DNA of 64,000 nt from Halopenitus persicus (GCF_002355635.1 NZ_AP017558.1:1674001-1738000); one strand, 5' to 3'. Positions 9,714 through 32,599 are shown, numbered from the stretch's first letter. Notes: generated by a model from the letters alone, not told the origin. Numbers and translations: made by a program.

Positions 9714-11279
9714 ATGGACCTCCCGACCTGGATCCGGTATCGTGGCTTCGTCGTTGCGCTGCTCGGGTTCGCGATCACTCGGTTCTTCGTCGCCGAGGCG
9801 CTCGTGGTCGACCGCTCCGACCTCTTCCTGGTCGTCGGGCTGCTGCCGCTCGTCGCTGGGCTCTCGTTGACCGTCTACGGCGTGGCGCTCGCCGTCGGCG
9901 TGTTCTCCCGGGATTACGTCGCGACCGTCGCCCGGTGGTGTCTGCTCGGAACGGGCGGTATGGCCGTCGTCGTTGCGATCACCCTCGTCGGGGCCGGCGA
10001 TATGGGAACGATCTCCCCGTCAACCGCACCTGCACTCGTGGCGAACGTCCTCATCAGCGGCGCGGTCGCCGGAGTGGTCGTCGGGGATCGGTCGGCGAGA
10101 CACCGACGCGAACGGGAGCGGAATCGACGCCAGGCGAACCGGGCGCTGTTCGTGATCCGGATCCTCCGACACGAGGTGATAAACGCGGCGGCGATCGTCG
10201 ACGGGCACGCCGATCTCCTGGATGGGACGGCCGATCCGCGACCGCGGTCACTGCGGGCGATCGACGCCGCCGCCGCCCGGATCCGGGCGACGGTCGAGGA
10301 GGTCGCGTCGGTCGCGCAGCCGTTCGAGACGACCCGGCGGGTGGACCTCGAGGCGACCGTCACGGACGCCCTCGCCGCGTTCGAAGGCGACCATCCGGAC
10401 GTGACCGTGCGGGCTGATCTGGAGACGACCGGGGGAGACACCGAGGTCGTGGGCGACGATCGGATCCGCCTCGCCATCGATGAACTGCTCGAGAACGCCC
10501 TCGAACACGGGACGACGGACCGTATCGCGGTCGGGATCCGCGAGGCGCCCGGCACGGTGGAGGTGTCGGTCAGCGACGACGGACCGGGACTGTCCGCCGA
10601 CCAGCGTGACCTGTTGACCGCGGGGGAGTTCCCGGAGTACGACGACCCCTCGACGGGATTCGGTCTCCAGATCGTTCACCTGATCGTCACCCGGTACGGC
10701 GGCGAGGTCCGCGTCACCGCCGACGGGATCGACGGGGACGGAACGACGATCACGCTCGTGTTTCCCCGACACTCCCTCCCGAACCCCCTCGTTGAATCCG
10801 TCTCCGTGACGTTCCCGAACCTCCGCCGGGCCGTCGTGGCGAGCCTCGTCGCCGGACTGGCGATGGGCCTGTTCTTTCAGGCCGCAAGCGGCCTGCTTCC
10901 CGTGATCGGCGCGCTCTACGGCGTCGAGCGTCCGCTGGTGGGGTGGATCACCCATCTGTTCCACAGCGTCGTCTTCGGACTCCTCTTCGCCGCGGGATGC
11001 TCGTGGTCGCGACTCCGTCGACACGCCCGAAACCCGGTCTCGGTCGGAACCGTCGGGGTGCTCTGGGGCATCGTCCTCTGGCTGGTCGCCGCCGGCCTGA
11101 TCATGCCCGTTTGGCTCTCGCTGGTCGGGCTCCCGAGCGCACTCCCGAACCTCTCGGCGCTCGGGTTCGTCGGGCACGTCCTCTGGGGGACCGTTCTCGG
11201 AACGACCTTCTGGTGGCTCGGAACTCGATCGCTCGGCGAGTTCGATCGTCACGAGCAGCCGGTCGAGCGCCTCCGATGA
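9714..11279 (+). CDS. Membrane sensor histidine kinase with an extra C-terminal membrane domain
   Basis: 521 residues. Four N-terminal helices (~10-125) are followed by a basic linker, a HisKA-like helix with H-box RILRHEVINA (His153) and a HATPase domain with N-box DELLENALEHG, G1 VSDDGPGLS and G2 TGFGLQIVH. The domain ends near 355 (TITLVFPRH), where most histidine kinases stop. Here ~165 further residues form four helices with two related halves (GWITHLFHSVVFGLLFA and GFVGHVLWGTVLGTTFW). No receiver-domain gene is adjacent. The ligand is unknown. Confidence 0.85.
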   Translation: MDLPTWIRYRGFVVALLGFAITRFFVAEALVVDRSDLFLVVGLLPLVAGLSLTVYGVALAVGVFSRDYVATVARWCLLGTGGMAVVVAITLVGAGDMGTISPSTAPALVANVLISGAVAGVVVGDRSARHRRERERNRRQANRALFVIRILRHEVINAAAIVDGHADLLDGTADPRPRSLRAIDAAAARIRATVEEVASVAQPFETTRRVDLEATVTDALAAFEGDHPDVTVRADLETTGGDTEVVGDDRIRLAIDELLENALEHGTTDRIAVGIREAPGTVEVSVSDDGPGLSADQRDLLTAGEFPEYDDPSTGFGLQIVHLIVTRYGGEVRVTADGIDGDGTTITLVFPRHSLPNPLVESVSVTFPNLRRAVVASLVAGLAMGLFFQAASGLLPVIGALYGVERPLVGWITHLFHSVVFGLLFAAGCSWSRLRRHARNPVSVGTVGVLWGIVLWLVAAGLIMPVWLSLVGLPSALPNLSALGFVGHVLWGTVLGTTFWWLGTRSLGEFDRHEQPVERLR

Positions 11280-11407
11280 CGCCGCCCACCGTCCGACTGC
11301 CCTTCCGTTGCTGGCGTGGTGAGACGTCGCCCGTTCCAACTCGACAGCCACTCTCGACCGGTTTTCCGGAGGGAATCGTTATGCCGGATGCGACCCAACG
11401 ATCCGGT

Positions 11408-11839
11408 ATGTCCGACCCGTCCTCACCCGACGATCCACCCGATTCGGACGACGGCAATGATCACGGCGTCGATCAGGACGTCGGTTCGGTCGACCCCGTC
11501 GAACGCCTGGAGGTCTGGTGTGCCGGCGAGGATTGGTGCCCGGTCACCACCACCGCGACGCTCATCGGCAAGAAGTGGCACCCGGTCATCATCCACCGGC
11601 TCCTCGAGCACGGTCCGAGCGGATTTAACGAACTCCAGGACGCCGTCGACGGGATCTCGAGCAAGGTGCTTTCCGACAGCCTCGAGGACCTCCAGGAGAA
11701 CCGACTCGTCGAGCGCGAGATAATCAGCGAGAAGCCGTTTCGCGTACGGTACTCGCTGACCGACCACGGCCGATCCCTCGAACCGGTGATCTATTCGATG
11801 CGGGATTGGGGCGTCCAGCATTTGGCTTCCCCCGACTAG
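11408..11839 (+). CDS. HxlR-family winged-helix transcriptional regulator
   Basis: 143 residues from ATG 11408; an in-frame ATG at 11381 would add nine residues. After an acidic tail, Cys residues in EVWCAGEDWCPVTTT are followed by the HxlR core LIGKKWHPVIIHRLLEHGPS, helix-turn-helix (FNELQDAVDGISSKVLSDSL) and wing (LVEREIISEKPFRVRYSLT). HxlR proteins are dimeric repressors or activators, often responding to thiol-reactive compounds or aldehydes; the two cysteines are candidate sensors. It is probably not co-transcribed with the kinase, 128 bp upstream. Confidence 0.88.
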   Translation: MSDPSSPDDPPDSDDGNDHGVDQDVGSVDPVERLEVWCAGEDWCPVTTTATLIGKKWHPVIIHRLLEHGPSGFNELQDAVDGISSKVLSDSLEDLQENRLVEREIISEKPFRVRYSLTDHGRSLEPVIYSMRDWGVQHLASPD

Positions 11840-12038: not shown

Positions 12039-13175
12039 ATGGCTAGGGACGTAACCCGTCGGGCGGCGCTCGTCGGCGCCGGTGCCGCAGCGCTCTCCGG
12101 CTGTCTCGCCGATCGAGGGATCGGGAGCGCCGGCTCCGCTTCACGGACCGACTCCCCAAGCGAGGGGGACGGGTCGTCCGATCGGTCGGCCGCTGACCGG
12201 TCCGGTCCGCCAACGCGGGACGACACGCTGCCGCTTCCGATGGACCCCTCGTCGCTCCGGGACCGTGCGATATCCGGCGGGCCGCCAAAGGACGGGATCC
12301 CCGCGATCGAGGACCCGCAGTTCGTCCCCGCGGGGGCGGCCGCGGAGCGGCTGAACCCCGGCGATCCCGTGTTCGGGCTCGCCAGAGGGGACGCGGTCAA
12401 GGCCTACCCGCAGTCGATACTCGTCTCCCACGAGATCTGCAACGACGTCGTCGACGGCGTTCCGGTCAGCGTCACCTACTGTCCGTTGACCGGGACCGCG
12501 ATGGGGTTCGAACGCGGCGACACGACCTTCGGCGTCTCCGGCCGCCTGGTGAACAACAACCTGATCATGTACGACCGGGCCACCGAGACGTGGTGGCCGC
12601 AGGTGCTCGCGACCGCGATCCCAGGGCCGTGGAACGAATCGCCGGCGACGCGGTCGCTCCGGGAGTTCCGGGTGGTCTGGACGACGTGGGAACGATGGGT
12701 GGACCGGTACCCCGACACGCGGGTTCTCTCCCGCGAGACGGGCTTCGCGCGAAACTACGATGCGGACCCGTACGGGACGTACAATCCACGCCTCGGGTAT
12801 TACGAACCCGAATCCTCGCCGATGTTTCCGCCCCTCGCCACGGACGAGCGCCTCGAGCCCAAACGCGTCGTCATCGGCGCACGGACGACTGCGGGCGCGT
12901 TCGCCGTCGAGAAGAACCACCTCCGGGACGCGAAGCTCGTCCGCGGGGAGATCGGCGGGACCCCCGTGGTGGCGACCTACGACCCGACCCTGGATACTGG
13001 CTACGTGTTTGTAAACCCCGACGCCCGCCCGTTCGACTACCGACGCGGACGGGTCCACGGAGCGGACGGCGAAACGCATCCGCCGGCGGACCTCCCGCTC
13101 GAACGGCTCCACGCGTTCGACGCGATGTGGTTCGCCTGGCGCGGCTTCTACCCCGAGACGACCCTGTATGACTGA
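12039..13175 (+). CDS. DUF3179 lipoprotein, Tat-type signal
   Basis: 378 residues. The N-terminus RDVTRRAALVGAGAAALSGC has a twin Arg, a short hydrophobic core and a lipobox Cys, so export by Tat and lipid anchoring are expected. A Ser/Asp-rich linker (~24-65) leads to a DUF3179 domain: ISGGPPKDGIPAIEDPQF, SHEICND, SVTYCPLTGTAMGF, FGVSGRLVNNNLIMYDRAT and a C-terminal AMWFAWRGFYP. The two conserved Cys (EICND, TYCPL) are typical. The family's function is unknown. The stop overlaps the next gene by 8 bp, indicating co-translation. Confidence 0.9.
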   Translation: MARDVTRRAALVGAGAAALSGCLADRGIGSAGSASRTDSPSEGDGSSDRSAADRSGPPTRDDTLPLPMDPSSLRDRAISGGPPKDGIPAIEDPQFVPAGAAAERLNPGDPVFGLARGDAVKAYPQSILVSHEICNDVVDGVPVSVTYCPLTGTAMGFERGDTTFGVSGRLVNNNLIMYDRATETWWPQVLATAIPGPWNESPATRSLREFRVVWTTWERWVDRYPDTRVLSRETGFARNYDADPYGTYNPRLGYYEPESSPMFPPLATDERLEPKRVVIGARTTAGAFAVEKNHLRDAKLVRGEIGGTPVVATYDPTLDTGYVFVNPDARPFDYRRGRVHGADGETHPPADLPLERLHAFDAMWFAWRGFYPETTLYD

Positions 13176-13773
13176 GTCCCATCCGTCGGCCGCCAGCCCC
13201 GCCGACGCCGGCGTCCTCGCTCGGACTCGCGTCGCCCTCGCGGTCGCTCTCGGACGACGGGACACCAGGGTCCTCCTCCTCGGCGTGACCGTCGGGTATC
13301 TCTGCCTGTATCTCGTCACCGTCGGCGACCTCTCGCTGGCAAGCCAAGGAACCGGAACGGTCTCGATCCGGACCGCGGCGGACCTCTCGCGAGCGGTCGC
13401 TCGTCTCGGATTCCTTCGGTTCGGCGCGGTCGCCGTCGTTTCGGCCGGCCCGGTCACGTACCTGTTCGCCCCGCTCAACGTGCTGGTCGGGACGGTCCTC
13501 GCGCTCCTGGTCGGCGCGAACGCCGCGCTCACGTATCTCGGCGTGGTCCAACCGCAAGCCTGCGGGCTCGAGTCCTCGACCGGGATCATCGCCGGCGTCC
13601 CGGCGCTGTTGTCCGGGGCCGCCTGCTGCGGACCGACGATCCTGTTCGTCGTCGGGATCCAGGCGAGCGCGGCGCTCGTCGCGGCGTTCCAGCTGTTGGT
13701 GCCGGTCGCGGTCGTGTTGCTCGTCGCCGGACTCCTCCTCGTCGGCCGCCGGATCGATCCCGCGCTGGTGTGA
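13168..13773 (+). CDS. Membrane protein with a Cys-Cys motif in a helix
   Basis: 201 residues, start overlapping the DUF3179 gene by 8 bp. About five helices (~34-55, ~84-104, ~104-127, ~137-165, ~166-192). Cys132 (QPQACGLE) and the pair Cys153-Cys154 (LLSGAACCGPTILFVVG) lie at or in membrane segments. An adjacent Cys pair followed by Gly-Pro recalls MerT-type metal transporters, but overall similarity is not clear enough to call that family. Together with a Cys-lipoprotein partner, membrane thiol or metal chemistry is a plausible inference. Confidence 0.8.
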   Translation: MTESHPSAASPADAGVLARTRVALAVALGRRDTRVLLLGVTVGYLCLYLVTVGDLSLASQGTGTVSIRTAADLSRAVARLGFLRFGAVAVVSAGPVTYLFAPLNVLVGTVLALLVGANAALTYLGVVQPQACGLESSTGIIAGVPALLSGAACCGPTILFVVGIQASAALVAAFQLLVPVAVVLLVAGLLLVGRRIDPALV

Positions 13774-13786
13774 CCGACCCGTCTCG

Positions 13787-13882
13787 CGGTCGTCTCCGCT
13801 CGTCCACCGGCGGTCGTCTCCGCTCGTCCACCGGCGGTCGTCTCCGCTCGTCCACCGGCGGTCGTCTCCGCTCGTCCACCGG
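13787..13882 (+). repeat. 24-bp minisatellite, four copies
   Basis: Four perfect copies of cggtcgtctccgctcgtcca(ccgg), with a partial fifth (cggtcgcctacgtctcgtcc) that carries the stop codon and last codons of the convergent HAD gene. The array fills the gap between two convergent genes and seems to have grown from the HAD gene's 3' end. Confidence 0.95.
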
Positions 13883-13889
13883 CGGTCGC

Positions 13890-14576
13890 CTACGTCTCGT
13901 CCAACGCGTCGGCCAGCCCGTGGAGCGATTCCACGATCAGGTCCGGGTCGGAGCCGAACGGCTCCCACGGCGCCCCCTTCCGGTCGACCCAGACGCCCTG
14001 CATACCGGCGTGTTTGGCCCCCTGGACGTCGAACCAGCCGGCCGTCACGTGGGCGATCTCGTCGATCGGGGTCCCCGTTCGCGCCGCCGCGTGGCGGTAG
14101 ATCTCGGCGGCGGGCTTGAACGTCCGGACCTCGTCGGCGCTGATCGTGTCCAGCACGAGGTCGCCGATGTCGGCGTGGTCGACCATCGAGGCCAGCATCT
14201 CCGGGTTTCCGTTGGAGACGACGTAACAGTCGTAGCCCGCCTCCCGGAGCCGCTCGATCCCCTCGCGCACGTCCGCAAAGACGTCGAGTTCGTGGTACAC
14301 CGCGAGGATCTCGTCGCGTTCCTCCCGCGGGAGGTCGACGCCGTGAGCGTCGAGGGCGTACTGGAGCGCGTCCCGATTCATCTCATAAAAGGGCTGGTAG
14401 GCGTCGAGGTGGTTCGCGACGAAGGTGTACTCGATCGATCGCGCCCGCCAGAGCTTCGAGACCGGCTCCGGGTCGGCGACGCGATTCGCGAGGGCGGATT
14501 CAGCCGCGTCCACGTCGACGAGCGTACTGTACGAGTCGAAGGTCACCGTTCGCACGCGCTCGGGGTCGAAGCTCAT
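13890..14576 (-). CDS. Haloacid dehalogenase type II-like hydrolase
   Basis: 228 residues from ATG 14576 (MSFDPERVRTVTFDSYSTLVD); the ATG four codons upstream is less likely. HAD motif I is FDSYSTLVD (nucleophile Asp), motif II is VVSNGNPEM, motif III the Lys in RTFKPAAEIY, and the final motif HVTAGWFDVQGAKHAG resembles the HV(A)xxxxDxxGAxxAG block of L-2-haloacid dehalogenases. The expected product is removal of halide or phosphate from a small acid; the exact substrate is not predictable. Monocistronic with its own TATA box. Confidence 0.85.
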   Translation of the reverse strand: MSFDPERVRTVTFDSYSTLVDVDAAESALANRVADPEPVSKLWRARSIEYTFVANHLDAYQPFYEMNRDALQYALDAHGVDLPREERDEILAVYHELDVFADVREGIERLREAGYDCYVVSNGNPEMLASMVDHADIGDLVLDTISADEVRTFKPAAEIYRHAAARTGTPIDEIAHVTAGWFDVQGAKHAGMQGVWVDRKGAPWEPFGSDPDLIVESLHGLADALDET

Positions 14577-14613
14577 CACCGTTCCCACGGGTTCAGGGGT
14601 GATAATCCTCCGG

Positions 14614-14622
14614 CTTTTTAAG
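14614..14622 (-). promoter_or_regulatory. TATA box of the HAD gene
   Basis: On the minus strand this reads cttaaaaag, an AT block in GC-rich DNA, centred ~42 bp upstream of ATG 14576. A leader of about 15 nt would follow. Confidence 0.5.
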
Positions 14623-14700
14623 TGCTCAGCCGGACCGCGGGTGTCGTGACGGGTCCCCGGTCACCCGTGTTTCTATACGGTTCGTCCCGTATCCACGGGT

Positions 14701-15174
14701 ATGGTCTCGAACACGCGCCTGTACGGCGCGGCCATCGCGGTCACGTCCGGCCTGTACTCCGTCGCGAGCGCCACCACGGGCTCACGAATGGGGATCGGCG
14801 GTTGGATCATGGGTCTGCTCGGCGTCGTCGTGATCGTCCACGGCGTCGTCCTGCTCACGGACGCAGCCACCCGGCTCGGCGGCGTCAGCGGACCGTTGAT
14901 GGTCGGCTACGCTGTCGTGATGCTCCTCCTCCAGGTCCTGTACGGTGCCGGCTTGCTGGTCGGCGGGGGCGGAAGCGGAATGTGGGGAAGCGGGATGACT
15001 GACGGGATGGCCGGCGGCGGAATGGCTGGTGACGGAATGGCCGGCGGAGCCGGGATGGGGATGACCGCCGGAATGGGATGGGATGCGGGGATGGTCGCTC
15101 TGGCCTTGTTGATGCTCGTCAGCGGGCTCGTTATGGCGCGGGATCGGCCGACTGAATCGGACCGGCGAATGTAA
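14701..15174 (+). CDS. Membrane protein with Met/Gly-rich loop
   Basis: 157 residues with helices at ~5-25, ~30-53, ~63-88 and ~130-148. Between the last two helices, residues 90-131 are almost only Gly, Met, Ala and Ser, with nine methionines spaced every 2-6 residues (SGMTDGMAGGGMAGDGMAGG). Such Met-rich segments in secreted or membrane proteins often bind Cu(I), but a flexible linker is an equally simple reading. No named family recognised. It lies between genes with cysteine-rich or metal-domain products. Confidence 0.75.
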   Translation: MVSNTRLYGAAIAVTSGLYSVASATTGSRMGIGGWIMGLLGVVVIVHGVVLLTDAATRLGGVSGPLMVGYAVVMLLLQVLYGAGLLVGGGGSGMWGSGMTDGMAGGGMAGDGMAGGAGMGMTAGMGWDAGMVALALLMLVSGLVMARDRPTESDRRM

Positions 15175-15245
15175 CGTGAGCCGTGACGACACGATCGACG
15201 GTACTCGTCTCGTCCGTCTCGGCCGAACCGCTTGTCCCCGTCGAG

Positions 15246-16694
15246 TCACTCGGCGTCGGAGAGCCTGCCGTTCAACACCTTCGCCGCGACCAGGACCGGG
15301 TCCCAGACCGGACTGAACGGCGGCGCGTAGGCGAGATCGAGCCGTTCGAGCTCCGGGACGGTGCGGTCGGACTCGAGCGCCGTCGCGAGCGTGTCGATCC
15401 GGATCGCGGCCCGGTCGGTCCCCACGATGCTGCCGCCCAACAGCCGCCCGGTTTCGCGGTCGGCGGTGAGCGTCACCGTCGTCTCCGCGGCGCCGGGGTA
15501 GTACCCCGACCGCGATCCGGCCGTGACGGTCTCGGAGACGGGATCGAAGCCCGCCGCGCGTGCCCGCCCGTGGTCGATGATCCCCGTCCGGCCGCACTCC
15601 TGCTCGAAGGCCTTCACGGCTGCCGTGCCGGCGATCTCGCCGACCGGGGTCGGCGTCCCGGCGACCGTCTGCCCGACCGCCCGCCCGGCCCGGTTGGCCG
15701 TCAGCCCGAGCGGCACCCAGTCGGACTCGCCGGTCACCGTATGCCGGGCTTCCGCGCAGTCGCCCGCGGCGAACACCCGGTCCGCGGTCGTTCGGCCGTA
15801 CTCGTCGGTCGCGATCGCGCCCGACGCGCCGCGTTCGATCGGGGTGTCGTCGACGATCCCCGCGTTCGGCCGCACGCCGATTCCGATCAGCGCGAGATCG
15901 ACCGGCACTCGCTCGTCGGCCGTCACGACCGCGGTGACCCGGTCCGTTCCGGCCAGTCGCTCGACCTCGGTCCCGGTGCGGACGTCGACCCCGTGGTCGG
16001 CGAGCGTCGCCGCGACCGTCTCGCCGACCGCCTCGCCGAACTCCGGCAGCAGCCGGTCGGGCCGCTGGAAGAGATGGACGTCGAGGTCGTGTGCGCCGAA
16101 CGCCTCGGCCATCTCGACGCCGACGTACCCGCCGCCGACGATCGCCGCGCTCGTCGGCGGCTCCATCGCGGCGTACCGCTCGACCCGCTCGGCGTCGACG
16201 TACTCGACGTCCGGAGCCGTGACTCCGTCGCCCGAATCGACCCCACCGTCGCCCGGCGGCGTCAGAAACGCCCGCAGCGCCGCGGCGGCGTCCATGCTGT
16301 GCATCGTGAACGCGCCGGTCAGATCGGCCCCCGCGATGGGGTCCGCGACCGCGTGGGCGCCGGTCGCCACGAGGAGGTCGCCGTACGACCGTTCGAACCG
16401 GCCCGACTCGCCCTCGACGCTCACGGTTCGGTCCGCGACGTTCACCGCCACGACCTCGTGGCGCCGCCGGAGGTCGATCCCGCGGTCGGCGATCTCCTCG
16501 GGGGTCAACGAGAGGAGGTCACGGAGGGACCCGATCTCGCCTTTCACGTAGTACGGCATTCCACACTGGGCGTAGGACACCCACGACCCCTTCTCGAAGA
16601 CGATCACGTCCCGGTCCGGCCGCTCCCGCTTCAGCTTGCTCGCGGCGCTCAGCCCCGCGGCGTCGCCGCCGATGACGACGAATGGGTCCGTCAT
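15246..16694 (-). CDS. FAD-dependent pyridine nucleotide-disulfide oxidoreductase, CoA-disulfide reductase/NADH oxidase type
   Basis: 482 residues. N-terminal FAD motif VIGGDAAGLSAASKLK, redox Cys44 in SYAQCGMPYY (the single-Cys signature of CoA-disulfide reductases and Nox/NPSH enzymes), NADH motif AAIVGGGYVGVEMAEAF (~183-199), FAD-binding RVFAAGDCAEA, and a C-terminal dimerisation domain. An acidic insert of ~25 residues lies before the NADH domain (PPGDGGVDSGDGV). It likely uses NAD(P)H to reduce CoA or persulfide disulfides, or oxygen; haloarchaea use such systems besides gamma-glutamylcysteine. Gene faces its neighbours on both sides. Confidence 0.88.
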   Translation of the reverse strand: MTDPFVVIGGDAAGLSAASKLKRERPDRDVIVFEKGSWVSYAQCGMPYYVKGEIGSLRDLLSLTPEEIADRGIDLRRRHEVVAVNVADRTVSVEGESGRFERSYGDLLVATGAHAVADPIAGADLTGAFTMHSMDAAAALRAFLTPPGDGGVDSGDGVTAPDVEYVDAERVERYAAMEPPTSAAIVGGGYVGVEMAEAFGAHDLDVHLFQRPDRLLPEFGEAVGETVAATLADHGVDVRTGTEVERLAGTDRVTAVVTADERVPVDLALIGIGVRPNAGIVDDTPIERGASGAIATDEYGRTTADRVFAAGDCAEARHTVTGESDWVPLGLTANRAGRAVGQTVAGTPTPVGEIAGTAAVKAFEQECGRTGIIDHGRARAAGFDPVSETVTAGSRSGYYPGAAETTVTLTADRETGRLLGGSIVGTDRAAIRIDTLATALESDRTVPELERLDLAYAPPFSPVWDPVLVAAKVLNGRLSDAE

Positions 16695-16861
16695 ACCCGA
16701 TCCCTCTCGACGGACCCCGATAAGTCCCTACGTGACCTCGAGGTAGCCTAGGTAGCCCGACCGATCCCGGGGCTCCGCCGGCTCGAGGATTCACGGGACG
16801 CTGCCGTCCCGGGCGATCCGATGCCCCGACCCGGGCTCGGTTCCGGTCTCCGGCTTCAAGC

Positions 16862-17317
16862 TCAGTCCCGATCTTCCCCTGTCCCGGCCTCGCGCCGTTC
16901 GAACAGCAGCAGCGGTCGCATCCGTAACACCGGATCGTCGTCCCCGTGGACCGTCGCGTCGAACTCGACCAGCCCGGTCCGCGGGGACCGCTCCTCGGTC
17001 CGGGCGACCCGCGTTTCGACCGCGAGCGTCTCGCCGGGCCGCACCGGCGCGGGCCACCGAAGCTCGTCGATCCCCACCGCGCCGACGAACGCGGCGTCGG
17101 CGGTGAGGTGCTCGGTCATCAGCCGGATCGTCACCGCGAAGGTGTGGAGCCCGCTCGCGATGAGCCCGCCGTAGCGTGATTCACGCGCCCGCTCGGCGTC
17201 GGTGTGGAACGGTTGCGGATCGTAGGTCTCGGCGAACTCGACGATCTCCGACCGCGTCAGCGTGCGGCTCCCGCACGCGGTCGTCTCTCCGACGGCGAAG
17301 TCCTCGAAATGGCGCAT
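16862..17317 (-). CDS. MaoC-like (R)-specific enoyl-CoA hydratase family protein
   Basis: 151 residues from ATG 17317 (MRHFEDFAVGE); the frame is open further upstream, and an ATG at 17350 is a possible alternative. The hotdog-fold hydratase motif FAETYDPQPFHTDAERA supplies the Asp and His of the catalytic pair, followed by GLIASGLHTFAVTIRL. C-terminal strands match the rest of a single-hotdog MaoC domain. Expected to hydrate short enoyl-CoA thioesters; substrate unknown. Divergent from the HMA gene across a shared AT-rich promoter region. Confidence 0.88.
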   Translation of the reverse strand: MRHFEDFAVGETTACGSRTLTRSEIVEFAETYDPQPFHTDAERARESRYGGLIASGLHTFAVTIRLMTEHLTADAAFVGAVGIDELRWPAPVRPGETLAVETRVARTEERSPRTGLVEFDATVHGDDDPVLRMRPLLLFERREAGTGEDRD

Positions 17318-17366
17318 CGACGATGTCCCCGATCCGGCCGCTCGCCACATACGTGTTCCGCCGCTC

Positions 17367-17388
17367 GATTTTATTTCTCTCATATATC
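17367..17388. promoter_or_regulatory. Divergent promoter region, maoC-like / HMA gene
   Basis: An AT-rich island holds two TATA-like elements: gaaataaaat on the minus strand (about 17367-17377), ~55 bp upstream of the MaoC start, and atatat on the plus strand (17382-17387), 26 bp upstream of ATG 17411. The plus-strand spacing is what a leaderless haloarchaeal transcript would have and decides the HMA start. Confidence 0.55.
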
Positions 17389-17410
17389 TGTGAATTCTAT
17401 CGGTGGATTG

Positions 17411-18448
17411 ATGATCGCGGGCGGTCGATTTCGGATAGAGGCCGGGATCACGATGTCCACCACGACGCAGGCACCTTCGACGCAGGAATCCTCGAGACAG
17501 GAATCCTCGAGGCAGAAAACCCCGAGACGAGGACGCCACGAGAACCGCTGCCGACGCTGCAGTGACGGGTCGGACCCGGCGGACGCCGTCGGCCCGTCCG
17601 CCCCCTCGAGAACCTATGTCCCCGAGGGCGCGGCCCACGTCGTCTTCGAGGTCGACGGGTTCGACTGCCTCGACTGCCCCGACCGGATCGAGGCAGCCCT
17701 CGACCGGCTGGACGGCGTTCACGGCGCGACCGCGAGCTACGGCACCGAGACGGTGGGCGTCTATTACGACCCGGACGTCCGCGAGCCGGCCGACTTCGTC
17801 GATCGACTGACCGACGTCGGTCGGACGGTCGAGAGCCGCGACGACGCCTTTCGAAACCGCCGGGCGCGGCAGTGGGCCGGCGCGCGGTTCGCCGCCGGCG
17901 TGCTGGCCGGGCTGATGGCGCTCGTGCCGTACGCGAGCGTGGTCTATCCGATACGGTTCGAGTGGCTGCTCAGTCCCGAGATCGCCGCGCTCCTGCGGTC
18001 AGGGTTGGCGACGACCGGCGGCTTCAACTTCTATCTGAACGTCGCCGTCCTCTCCGGGATCGTGTTGCGGTTCGCCGGCAAGCCGATGCTCGACCGCGCC
18101 CGCGCGGCGCTGTCCGCCGGGACCGTGACCCCCTCGCTCGTCGCGACGTCCGTCGCCGTCCCGGCGTATCTCTACAGTGCGGCGGTCGTGCTCGTCGGGA
18201 TCACCGCCGCCGTCGACCTCTCGACGACGCAGGTCCACTTCGACGTCGTCGTCCTGATCGTCCTCGCGTGGCTGGCGGTCCAGCACGGGCTCGGACTGGA
18301 GACGCCGACCGACACGACCGACCCCGATCGACGGTCCACGTCCCGCGTCGACGCGTCCGCGGCCGCGCCCGGTGGCTCACTCGAGGACGGGACGGCTTTC
18401 GAGGACGGCGCCGCGCTCGACGACGGCGTCGCCTTCGAGAACGACTGA
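17411..18448 (+). CDS. HMA-domain membrane protein: N-terminal third of a P1B-type ATPase without catalytic domains
   Basis: 345 residues from ATG 17411 (26 bp after a TATA box); ATG 17453 is the alternative. A Cys pair CRRC (47-50) precedes an HMA domain with metal site GFDCLDCPDRIE (Cys86, Cys89). Four helices follow and match P1B ATPase helices MA, MB, 1 and 2: AGKPMLDRARAALSAGTVTP corresponds to the conserved linker before helix 1, and the frame reaches VQHGLGLE, where the actuator domain normally begins. The actuator, the CPC helix, the DKTG site and the nucleotide-binding domain are all absent. The tail is an acidic repeat (EDGTAFEDGAALDDGVAFE). Transition-metal binding is likely; ATP-driven transport is not possible with this protein alone. 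Confidence 0.85.
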   Translation: MIAGGRFRIEAGITMSTTTQAPSTQESSRQESSRQKTPRRGRHENRCRRCSDGSDPADAVGPSAPSRTYVPEGAAHVVFEVDGFDCLDCPDRIEAALDRLDGVHGATASYGTETVGVYYDPDVREPADFVDRLTDVGRTVESRDDAFRNRRARQWAGARFAAGVLAGLMALVPYASVVYPIRFEWLLSPEIAALLRSGLATTGGFNFYLNVAVLSGIVLRFAGKPMLDRARAALSAGTVTPSLVATSVAVPAYLYSAAVVLVGITAAVDLSTTQVHFDVVVLIVLAWLAVQHGLGLETPTDTTDPDRRSTSRVDASAAAPGGSLEDGTAFEDGAALDDGVAFEND

Positions 18449-18547: not shown

Positions 18548-19120
18548 TCACGGGGTGCCAAGCGTTTCGTGACGCCGGTAGAGATAGACCGCGCCCGCGA
18601 CCATGCCGACGAACCAGATCGCAAGCACCAGCACCCAGACGGCCGTGTTCGGGTCCCAGTCGCCGTTGGCACGGACGTACTGCATGTCGAAGTACGCCGA
18701 CGCTGGGAGCCCGATCCACGCCACGAGCACCAACAGTCCGCCGAGCGCCCCGAGCGAGCCGTTCACGCCCGACAACACGAGCAGTACCGCCCATAGCGCG
18801 GTCGCCCCCGCGACGCCGTACCACCACGTGTCGGAGACCGTGGTTCCGCCCGTCGCGCTCGCACCCGCCGTCCCGGCTCGGCTCGACGCTGATCCGGTTG
18901 TCGCGGTCCCGGCTGCTGTGCCACCGGTCGATCCGGCCGCGCTGCGACCGGTCCGGCCGCCGGCACTCCCGGAGCGCCCGCCGCCCGCCACCTCGTTGCG
19001 GACGCCGCAGTTGGGACACAGCTCGGCCTCCCGTTTGATCGCCTCGCCGCAGCTGGTGCAGTACACCTCGTCGGCCCGCAGCGACCGATCCGGCGGCCCG
19101 CGGTTCGAGCGTCGCGACAT
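18548..19120 (-). CDS. Zinc-ribbon membrane protein
   Basis: 190 residues. A zinc ribbon (CTSCGEAIKREAELCPNCG, residues 21-39) is followed by a ~60-residue Gly/Thr/Ser/Ala linker and three helices (~99-120, ~122-142, ~160-183). This architecture (ribbon, flexible linker, membrane part) is common in haloarchaea and shares its ribbon pattern with the TM2 protein at 52854-53486. Function unknown; the ribbon probably mediates protein contacts at the cytosolic face. Confidence 0.85.
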   Translation of the reverse strand: MSRRSNRGPPDRSLRADEVYCTSCGEAIKREAELCPNCGVRNEVAGGGRSGSAGGRTGRSAAGSTGGTAAGTATTGSASSRAGTAGASATGGTTVSDTWWYGVAGATALWAVLLVLSGVNGSLGALGGLLVLVAWIGLPASAYFDMQYVRANGDWDPNTAVWVLVLAIWFVGMVAGAVYLYRRHETLGTP

Positions 19121-19140
19121 ATCCGTTCGTTACGGACGGC

Positions 19141-19150
19141 TCTTTATAAG
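19141..19150 (-). promoter_or_regulatory. TATA box of the zinc-ribbon gene
   Basis: cttataaaga on the minus strand, centred 26 bp upstream of ATG 19120. The spacing predicts a leaderless transcript and confirms that start codon. Confidence 0.7.
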
Positions 19151-19199
19151 CGTGTTCGGCGATCGAACCATGGGCCGCCGAACGATCCCGACTGCCGGA

Positions 19200-19523
19200 T
19201 TAAAAGTGGTCGGCGGCGTCGGTCTCGTGTTGCAACTCCCCGCCACGGCCGCCCTCGACGGTCGCGGCGCCTTGGTCGCCCGTGGAGGGAACCCGGACGG
19301 TGACGTCGGTGACCTCCTCGAAGTCGGCGAGCAGGTCGCGCTTGATGTTCGTCGCGGTCACGTTGGAGATTCCGCAGCCCGAGCAGGTCCCGCCGAGCTC
19401 GACGACGACCTCGCCGGTCTCGGGGTTCGCCTCGCGGACGACGCTCGTGCCGCCGTGCATCCGGATGATCGGCATCTGCCCGACCATCCACGTCTCGATC
19501 CGGTCCGCCAGGGAGTCGCTCAT
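19200..19523 (-). CDS. NifU C-terminal-domain Fe-S scaffold/carrier
   Basis: 107 residues from ATG 19523 ([16 protein letters not shown]). The single NifU/Nfu domain carries the Fe-S ligand pair in [20 protein letters not shown], with the preceding HGGTSVVRE and VVVELGG strands typical of the family. Stand-alone Nfu proteins hold a 4Fe-4S cluster between two subunits and pass it to apo-enzymes. A hydrophilic tail of ~25 residues follows the domain. The 5' flank contains a 25-bp direct repeat. Confidence 0.92.
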
Positions 19524-19588
19524 CACCCGCCCTTCGGGCCCGAGCCTTTGGAACCTTGCGGTCGATCCGGGTTCTCTCCGCTTCTGGT

Positions 19589-19638
19589 CGGCACTCGAAG
19601 CGCCGTCTCGAACCGGCACTCGAAGCGCCGTCTCGAAC
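19589..19638 (+). repeat. 25-bp tandem duplication
   Basis: Two perfect copies of cggcactcgaagcgccgtct(cgaac), followed by the start of a third (cggcac). It lies between the stop of the USP gene and the start of the NifU-domain gene, both on the minus strand. Confidence 0.9.
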
Positions 19639-19672
19639 CGGCACCCGACCCGCGTTCACGCCGGGGAGGATG

Positions 19673-20131
19673 TCATCGCGTGTCCTCGCGGACGAACGTC
19701 ACCGGACACGGCGAGGAGAGCATCACCGTCTGGGCCACGCTTCCGAAGACGGCCTTCCCGGTCGGGGACCGTTTTCGTCCACCCACGACCACCCGGTCGG
19801 CGGTCACCTCCTCGGCGAGGTCCGCGATCGCCTGACCGTGTTCGCCGACCGCGCCGCGAACGCGGTACTCAACGCCGGCTTCCTCCATCACGTCGGCCAG
19901 CTCGCGTATCGTCGCGTGACGTTTCGCGACCCCGTCCGGCATCGCGTCCTCGCTTCCCGGCTCGACGTTTAGCCGCTTCCGGCTTTCCTTGATGGCCTCC
20001 TCGGTGAAGACGTGGGCCAACACGACTTCGGCCTCACACGGTCCCGCGACGTCGACCGTCTCCTCCGCCAGCCGACGCACCTGTTCCTCGCCGTCAGTTC
20101 CGACGCCCAGCAGGATCGTATCGATGCTCAC
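19673..20131 (-). CDS. Universal stress protein, ATP-binding type
   Basis: 152 residues from GTG 20131 (VSIDTILLGVGTDGEEQ), which matches where haloarchaeal USPs usually begin; ATG 20155 would add eight residues. The core ends with VVGGRKRSPTGKAVFGSVAQTVM and PCPVTFVRED, fitting the G-2x-G-9x-G-S ATP-binding signature. USPs are stress-linked nucleotide-binding regulators without a single known reaction. It lies 24 bp downstream of the kinase-like gene on the same strand, so the two are probably one transcript. Confidence 0.88.
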   Translation of the reverse strand: MSIDTILLGVGTDGEEQVRRLAEETVDVAGPCEAEVVLAHVFTEEAIKESRKRLNVEPGSEDAMPDGVAKRHATIRELADVMEEAGVEYRVRGAVGEHGQAIADLAEEVTADRVVVGGRKRSPTGKAVFGSVAQTVMLSSPCPVTFVREDTR

Positions 20132-20155
20132 GAGTCCTATTATCACCTTATCCAC

Positions 20156-32321: not shown

Positions 32322-32394
32322 GCCCGGATGGTGTAGTGGCCCATCATACGACCCTGTCACGGTCGTGACGCGGGTTCAAATCCCGCTCCGGGCG
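32322..32394 (+). tRNA. tRNA-Asp (GTC), copy 1
   Basis: 73 nt folding as a full cloverleaf: acceptor gcccgga/tccgggc, D-arm with gtgtagtggcccatcatac, anticodon stem accct-GTC-acggt with GTC at 32356-32358, T-arm cgggttcaaatcccg, discriminator g. CCA is not encoded. No intron. Confidence 0.97.
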
Positions 32395-32425
32395 CTCCCG
32401 CTGCAACCGACGCGAACCACCGGCT

Positions 32426-32498
32426 GCCCGGATGGTGTAGTGGCCCATCATACGACCCTGTCACGGTCGTGACGCGGGTTCAAATCCCGCTCCGGGCG
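32426..32498 (+). tRNA. tRNA-Asp (GTC), copy 2
   Basis: Identical in all 73 positions to copy 1 (anticodon GTC at 32460-32462). The 31-bp spacer (ctcccgctgcaaccgacgcg and so on) is not shared with other flanks. Identity implies recent duplication or gene conversion. Confidence 0.97.
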
Positions 32499-32599
32499 TT
32501 TTCGACGAACAACACGGCGAGCGAAGCGAGCCGCTCGTCGAAGGCGGATGCGAGGGAATGTGAATCTGAGGACGATCGATCGGAGCGAGTGGAGCCCTC

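Follow-up and report, generated by a model that had tools for sequence, protein, structure and literature searches.

Gene content of the Halopenitus persicus locus

The window, that is, the whole 64,000-nucleotide stretch of Halopenitus persicus DNA that was analysed, carries five genes that an earlier note had grouped as a possible copper- or thiol-handling system. All five are present with the features described there, and profile matches, cysteine and methionine counts, and coordinates confirmed the five sequence observations on which the proposal rested. A DUF3179 lipoprotein of the twin-arginine translocation (Tat) type (12039..13175, plus strand; PF11376, 1.4e-88) is followed by a membrane protein, referred to here as the CC protein (13168..13773, plus strand), whose last two helices are MerT-like and whose residues C132, C153, and C154 are invariant; the two genes overlap by 8 bases. 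Upstream of this pair, on the same strand, lie a membrane-anchored histidine kinase (9714..11279, plus strand; HATPase_c, 3e-18) and a regulator of the HxlR family that contains the motif WCAGEDWCP (11381..11839, plus strand, start codon approximate; HxlR, 1.1e-24; RrpB, 4e-19). Relatives of the histidine kinase directly precede the pair in genus g3, where the order kinase, DUF3179, CC is found at three loci (L114, L122, and L057).

The remaining members of the five are a methionine-rich membrane protein (MetR; 14701..15174, plus strand), assessed through an alignment of 30 relatives, their gene context, and a tree; a flavoprotein resembling CoA-disulfide reductase (CoADR; 15246..16694, minus strand; PF07992, 4.5e-51; TIGR03385, 354 bits); and a protein with a heavy-metal-associated domain (HMA; about 17453..18448, plus strand; PF00403, 1.8e-7). 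Interspersed among them on the opposite strand are a type II haloacid dehalogenase (HAD; 13890..14588, minus strand; TIGR01428, 2e-48) and a MaoC-like hotdog protein (16862..17317, minus strand, start approximate; PF01575, 2e-19); there is no sign that the MaoC-like gene belongs to the system. Further downstream, positions 18548-20155 hold genes for a zinc-ribbon membrane protein, a NifU-like protein, and universal-stress proteins in an order kept in the other two Halopenitus genomes, and two tandem tRNA-Asp genes lie at 32322-32499. A search of genome contigs with one query sequence returned matches only in Halopenitus malekzadehii.

Linkage of the DUF3179 and CC genes

Across a sample of 242 haloarchaeal genomes, matches to the CC protein were identified in 91 genomes from 35 genera, and matches to DUF3179 in 128. 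Every CC gene (93 of 93, including 90 outside Halopenitus in 32 genera) has a DUF3179 gene within 6 kb. At all 70 loci read in detail, which represent 35 genera, DUF3179 lies directly upstream of CC on the same strand, and the two genes overlap at 62 of them, mostly by 8, 11, or 4 bases. DUF3179 genes without a CC partner were also found, including a paralogue group in which the start as read carries no signal peptide. The two genes thus form an obligate pair from the side of the CC protein, and the reverse dependence does not hold. We regard this pair, with one invariant cysteine in DUF3179 and three in the MerT-like CC protein, as the strongest result of the analysis. Viral contigs yielded two bacterial-type DUF3179 genes and no CC relatives.

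Chance can be excluded, since dozens of genomes carry orthologues of DUF3179, CC, and the methionine-rich protein with their invariant residues.

Genomic neighbourhood across haloarchaea

Co-localisation was defined as a distance below 6 kb outside Halopenitus and was counted among the best 120-150 matches listed for each family. Among these matches, 8 DUF3179-MetR pairs were observed against 0.16 expected, 6 MetR-HAD pairs against 0.09, 11 HAD-CoADR pairs against 0.31, 5 CC-HAD pairs against 0.19, and 4 DUF3179-CoADR pairs against 0.37. As the genomes are related and not independent, the number of genera, 2 to 5 per gene combination, is the safer measure. In several genera, a type II HAD gene recurs in the vicinity of MetR, CoADR, and the DUF3179-CC pair. 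Under the same definition and among the same matches, HMA co-localised with none of the partners, and its synteny is common to Halopenitus only. The expected co-occurrence of the five families elsewhere was therefore borne out for four of them and failed for HMA, so that a single five-gene system is rejected.

Genes of thiol and redox metabolism recur around the pair. Regulators of the HxlR family, members of which, such as HypR and YodB, sense thiol stress in other prokaryotes, lie near 16 of the 70 CC loci (9 genera), with about 0.9 expected from the 2-3 such genes per genome, and in none of 20 background windows (Fisher p=0.018). In several genomes of other genera, HxlR genes also have CoADR relatives as direct neighbours. 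MerA-like reductases are found near 13 of the 70 pairs (10 genera), TrxR-like reductases near 7 (5 genera), and DsrE proteins near 7 (6 genera), with 0 of 20 background windows in each case. On a Halorarius plasmid, 20 kb hold the pair, a HAD-MetR unit, a disulfide reductase, TauE/SafE, DsrE, a thioredoxin, and a redoxin. In haloarchaeal islands that recur at loci L112, L113, L115, L116, L133, and L140, DUF3179 paralogues are accompanied by disulfide reductases and by DsrE, TauE/SafE or YeeE/YedE.

Copper-export genes show no such recurrence: a P1B-ATPase is found at 1 of the 70 loci, and CopZ, TRASH regulators, and the ArsP permease at 0 of 70. The thiol half of the suggested thiol-or-copper theme is supported, whereas copper as the common theme is rejected for the pair. 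Each neighbour beyond the pair itself occurs at a minority of loci, and the Pfam families encoded up to about 1.3 kb away are mixed, with MFS, MOSC, HxlR, and others among them. The linkage is that of one obligate pair with loosely linked neighbours and not of one fixed system.

Companion proteins

CoADR has one active-site-like cysteine, Cys44, in the sequence SYAQCGMP, and two other cysteines. It shares the fold and the SxxxC active-site region of the CoA-disulfide reductase/NADH oxidase family, but differs from CoA-disulfide reductases proper in scoring below the curated equivalog cut-off of TIGR03385 (354.1 versus 578.8 bits).

The methionine-rich protein contains 17 methionines and no cysteine, with nine of the methionines in a Gly/Met loop ahead of the last helix; Met, His47, and Gln78 are invariant across its 30 relatives. 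Copper-export markers (P1B-ATPase, CopZ, TRASH regulator, ArsP permease) accompany 9 of these 30 loci in nine genera, thiol-context markers accompany 14, and one locus shows both contexts. In Halobacterium, the copper response involves a TRASH-domain regulator and a P1B-ATPase (PMC3600143). The eight loci whose context is copper alone group together in the tree (support 98/93), and the copy in the window falls outside it, among thiol-context relatives, with no CopZ, TRASH regulator, or P1B-ATPase beside the gene at its locus. Copper bears on the window only indirectly; for the family at large it is a reasonable guess, which we do not extend to the copy in the window. Methionine-rich genes also lie within 1 kb (G078:C2:99589-101953) and 5 kb (G022:C2:428769-435516) of a true MerA.

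The HMA protein consists of a CxxC-containing HMA domain and, behind it, membrane helices of the P1B N-terminal type, the fourth of which is the last. It shares this domain and the first membrane helices with the N-terminus of P1B-type copper ATPases, but the ATPase domains are missing: in Pfam scans only HMA was detected, with no actuator, phosphorylation, or nucleotide domain (E1-E2_ATPase, Hydrolase). Halorubrum and one other genus encode relatives roughly 300 residues long; CxxC is absent from three sampled Halorubrum relatives and kept in the copies from the window and genus g20. At the three Halorubrum loci, the neighbouring genes are a conserved pair with no relation to metals, one of them CheF-like as judged by eye only. 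Together with L118-L121, the HMA protein represents a stand-alone family of four-helix fragments of P1B-ATPase origin with conserved length. A pseudogene is ruled out by dN/dS values of 0.19-0.42 and by the conservation of length in other genera, and we judge HMA to be a real gene outside the system.

Features of the DUF3179 lipoprotein

The DUF3179 protein is a full-length member of its family, scoring 297.5 bits against a gathering threshold of 27 and covering positions 1-292 of the 292 in PF11376. Its N-terminus combines a twin-arginine signal with a lipobox (TRRAALVG...LSGC), and its cysteines are found at positions 22, 134, and 148. Across 62 aligned proteins, including bacterial ones, H131, E132, N135, C148, G165, S167, G168, L170, D179, Q188, Y240, and K275 are invariant, C148 being the only invariant cysteine; the third residue after it is threonine in 50 of the 62 and cysteine in 12. 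Compared with the PF11376 family as a whole, the protein in the window belongs to a subfamily of lipoproteins whose membrane partner is obligate, and has threonine three residues past the invariant cysteine.

An ungapped internal repeat was detected between residues 105-163 and 272-330 (59 columns; hhalign probability 75%, E 3e-6), with nothing found in two control comparisons, and the second half carries aspartate at the position matching C148. We know of no description of this duplication, which is not to say that none exists. Predicted models of DUF3179 and the CC protein reached pLDDT values of 45 and 49, from 4 and 2 sequences, respectively, too low to be of use, and a search of solved structures returned no relative. 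Published selenoprotein lists include a predicted selenocysteine form of DUF3179 with the motif UxxC/T, and likewise one of the MerT family (PMC9312934, PMC13188914). The DUF3179 form suits a reactive or metal-binding role for C148.

The CC membrane protein and its likeness to MerT

The CC protein in the window has cysteines at positions 46, 132, 153, and 154. Three of these are invariant in 66 relatives: C132, within QPxACG, and C153 and C154, within ACCGP. Hydropathy suggests five likely helices, with C132 in the loop ahead of the helix that bears the C153-C154 pair.

The Pfam MerT model (PF02411) matches 45 of the 66 proteins, with a best E-value of 3.6e-5. All scores fall below the cut-off of 32.9 bits, the window protein reaching 10.3 and the best family member 27.4. 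When the model was run on 116 haloarchaeal genomes, the ten best matches were all CC genes, so the likeness is specific though weak. Residues 139-192 of the window protein align to model positions 10-65; with residue 139 at position 10, C153-C154 would fall near positions 24-25. This places them in the first model helix, the TM1 region, in which we take the vicinal cysteine pair of MerT to sit; the CC protein thus carries a vicinal pair in that helix.

Proposed function

We favour the reading that the pair acts as a surface thiol relay, in which a single-cysteine lipoprotein serves a MerT-like membrane conduit, although we hold it tentatively and at slightly below even confidence. From the sequence features we infer a location, a direction, a transfer between the partners, a class of substrate, and a mode of regulation. 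DUF3179 would be exported folded through the Tat pathway and then anchored by its lipid outside the cell, where C148 could serve as the nucleophile that binds or reacts with a soft or thiol-reactive substrate (a disulfide, sulfane sulfur, an electrophile, or a soft metal ion). The cotranslated CC protein would accept the load or electrons from DUF3179: C132, beside the membrane and facing a side at which we only guess, may receive the load, and C153-C154 in the next helix may hand it onward, much as the adjacent cysteines do in MerT. Inside the cell, thiols could be provided or regenerated by NAD(P)H-flavin disulfide reductases, whose genes often lie close by, and the adjacency of HxlR genes suggests that thiol stress could induce the set through these regulators. 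The methionine-rich and HAD proteins would be frequent, non-obligate companions, with HMA excluded.

The alternative that fares best, while still unlikely in our estimate, is a MerP-MerT-like system for a soft metal such as Hg(II), Cu(I), or Ag(I), in which DUF3179 binds the ion outside, the CC protein carries it across, and flavin reductases act inside. The MerT-like helices with their cysteine pair in register agree with such a role. In one genome (G022), a span of 7 kb covers the pair, a methionine-rich gene, and a true MerA, and a Deinococcus plasmid carries chrA together with genes for a CsoR-type regulator, a cation transporter, and a heavy-metal ATPase no more than 5 kb from DUF3179. 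However, the pair is found in 5 of 12 genomes with MerA versus 38 of 104 others (p=0.76), copper-export markers accompany just one of the 70 pairs, the nearby regulators are HxlR proteins with no recurrent MerR, ArsR, or TRASH regulator, and DUF3179 has one invariant cysteine instead of CxxC. A mercury operon in particular is rejected, as the occurrence of the pair does not follow that of true MerA.

We give a somewhat smaller chance to a role in sulfane sulfur metabolism, in which C148 would carry a persulfide and the membrane partner would move or reduce the sulfur. DsrE, TauE/SafE, TusA, and YeeE/YedE genes do adjoin DUF3179 genes, but they lie near a minority of pairs (DsrE, 7 of 70), and the clearest such cluster, in Haloferax larsenii, has a DUF3179 paralogue without a CC partner. 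The five-gene copper system proposed in the earlier note is very improbable: one methionine-rich clade does adjoin P1B-ATPase, CopZ, TRASH, and ArsP genes (9 of 30 loci), but that clade (98/93) leaves out the protein in the window, HMA co-localises with none of the other genes outside Halopenitus, and its sampled Halorubrum relatives lack CxxC.

Comparison with known systems

The proposed surface thiol relay has a parallel in the DsbD/CcdA-type thiol relays, in which membrane cysteines serve an external cysteine protein. This parallel concerns the manner of working only, and no sequence similarity to DsbD/CcdA was detected in Pfam or NCBIfam scans. Like the MerT/MerP/MerA system of bacterial mercury transport and reduction, the pair combines an extracytoplasmic cysteine protein with a membrane protein bearing a vicinal cysteine pair in a helix, and flavin disulfide reductases are encoded nearby. 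The CC protein nevertheless differs from MerT in having five predicted helices instead of three and the additional invariant C132; its partner is DUF3179, whereas that of MerT is the HMA-fold MerP; and, unlike the MerT system, the pair is not tied to MerA in its occurrence.

The obligate, overlapping CC partner and its three invariant cysteines open the function of DUF3179, a widespread family with predicted selenocysteine forms, to experimental test. As a speculation that we consider rather unlikely, the pair may represent an undescribed, widespread archaeal transmembrane thiol relay, in which a surface enzyme whose cysteine is replaceable by selenocysteine passes its substrate or electrons to a vicinal-cysteine conduit; MerT-mediated mercury transport may have branched off from such thiol relays as a specialised form. 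The likeness to MerT also points to a possible archaeal relative of a transporter family from bacterial mercury resistance.
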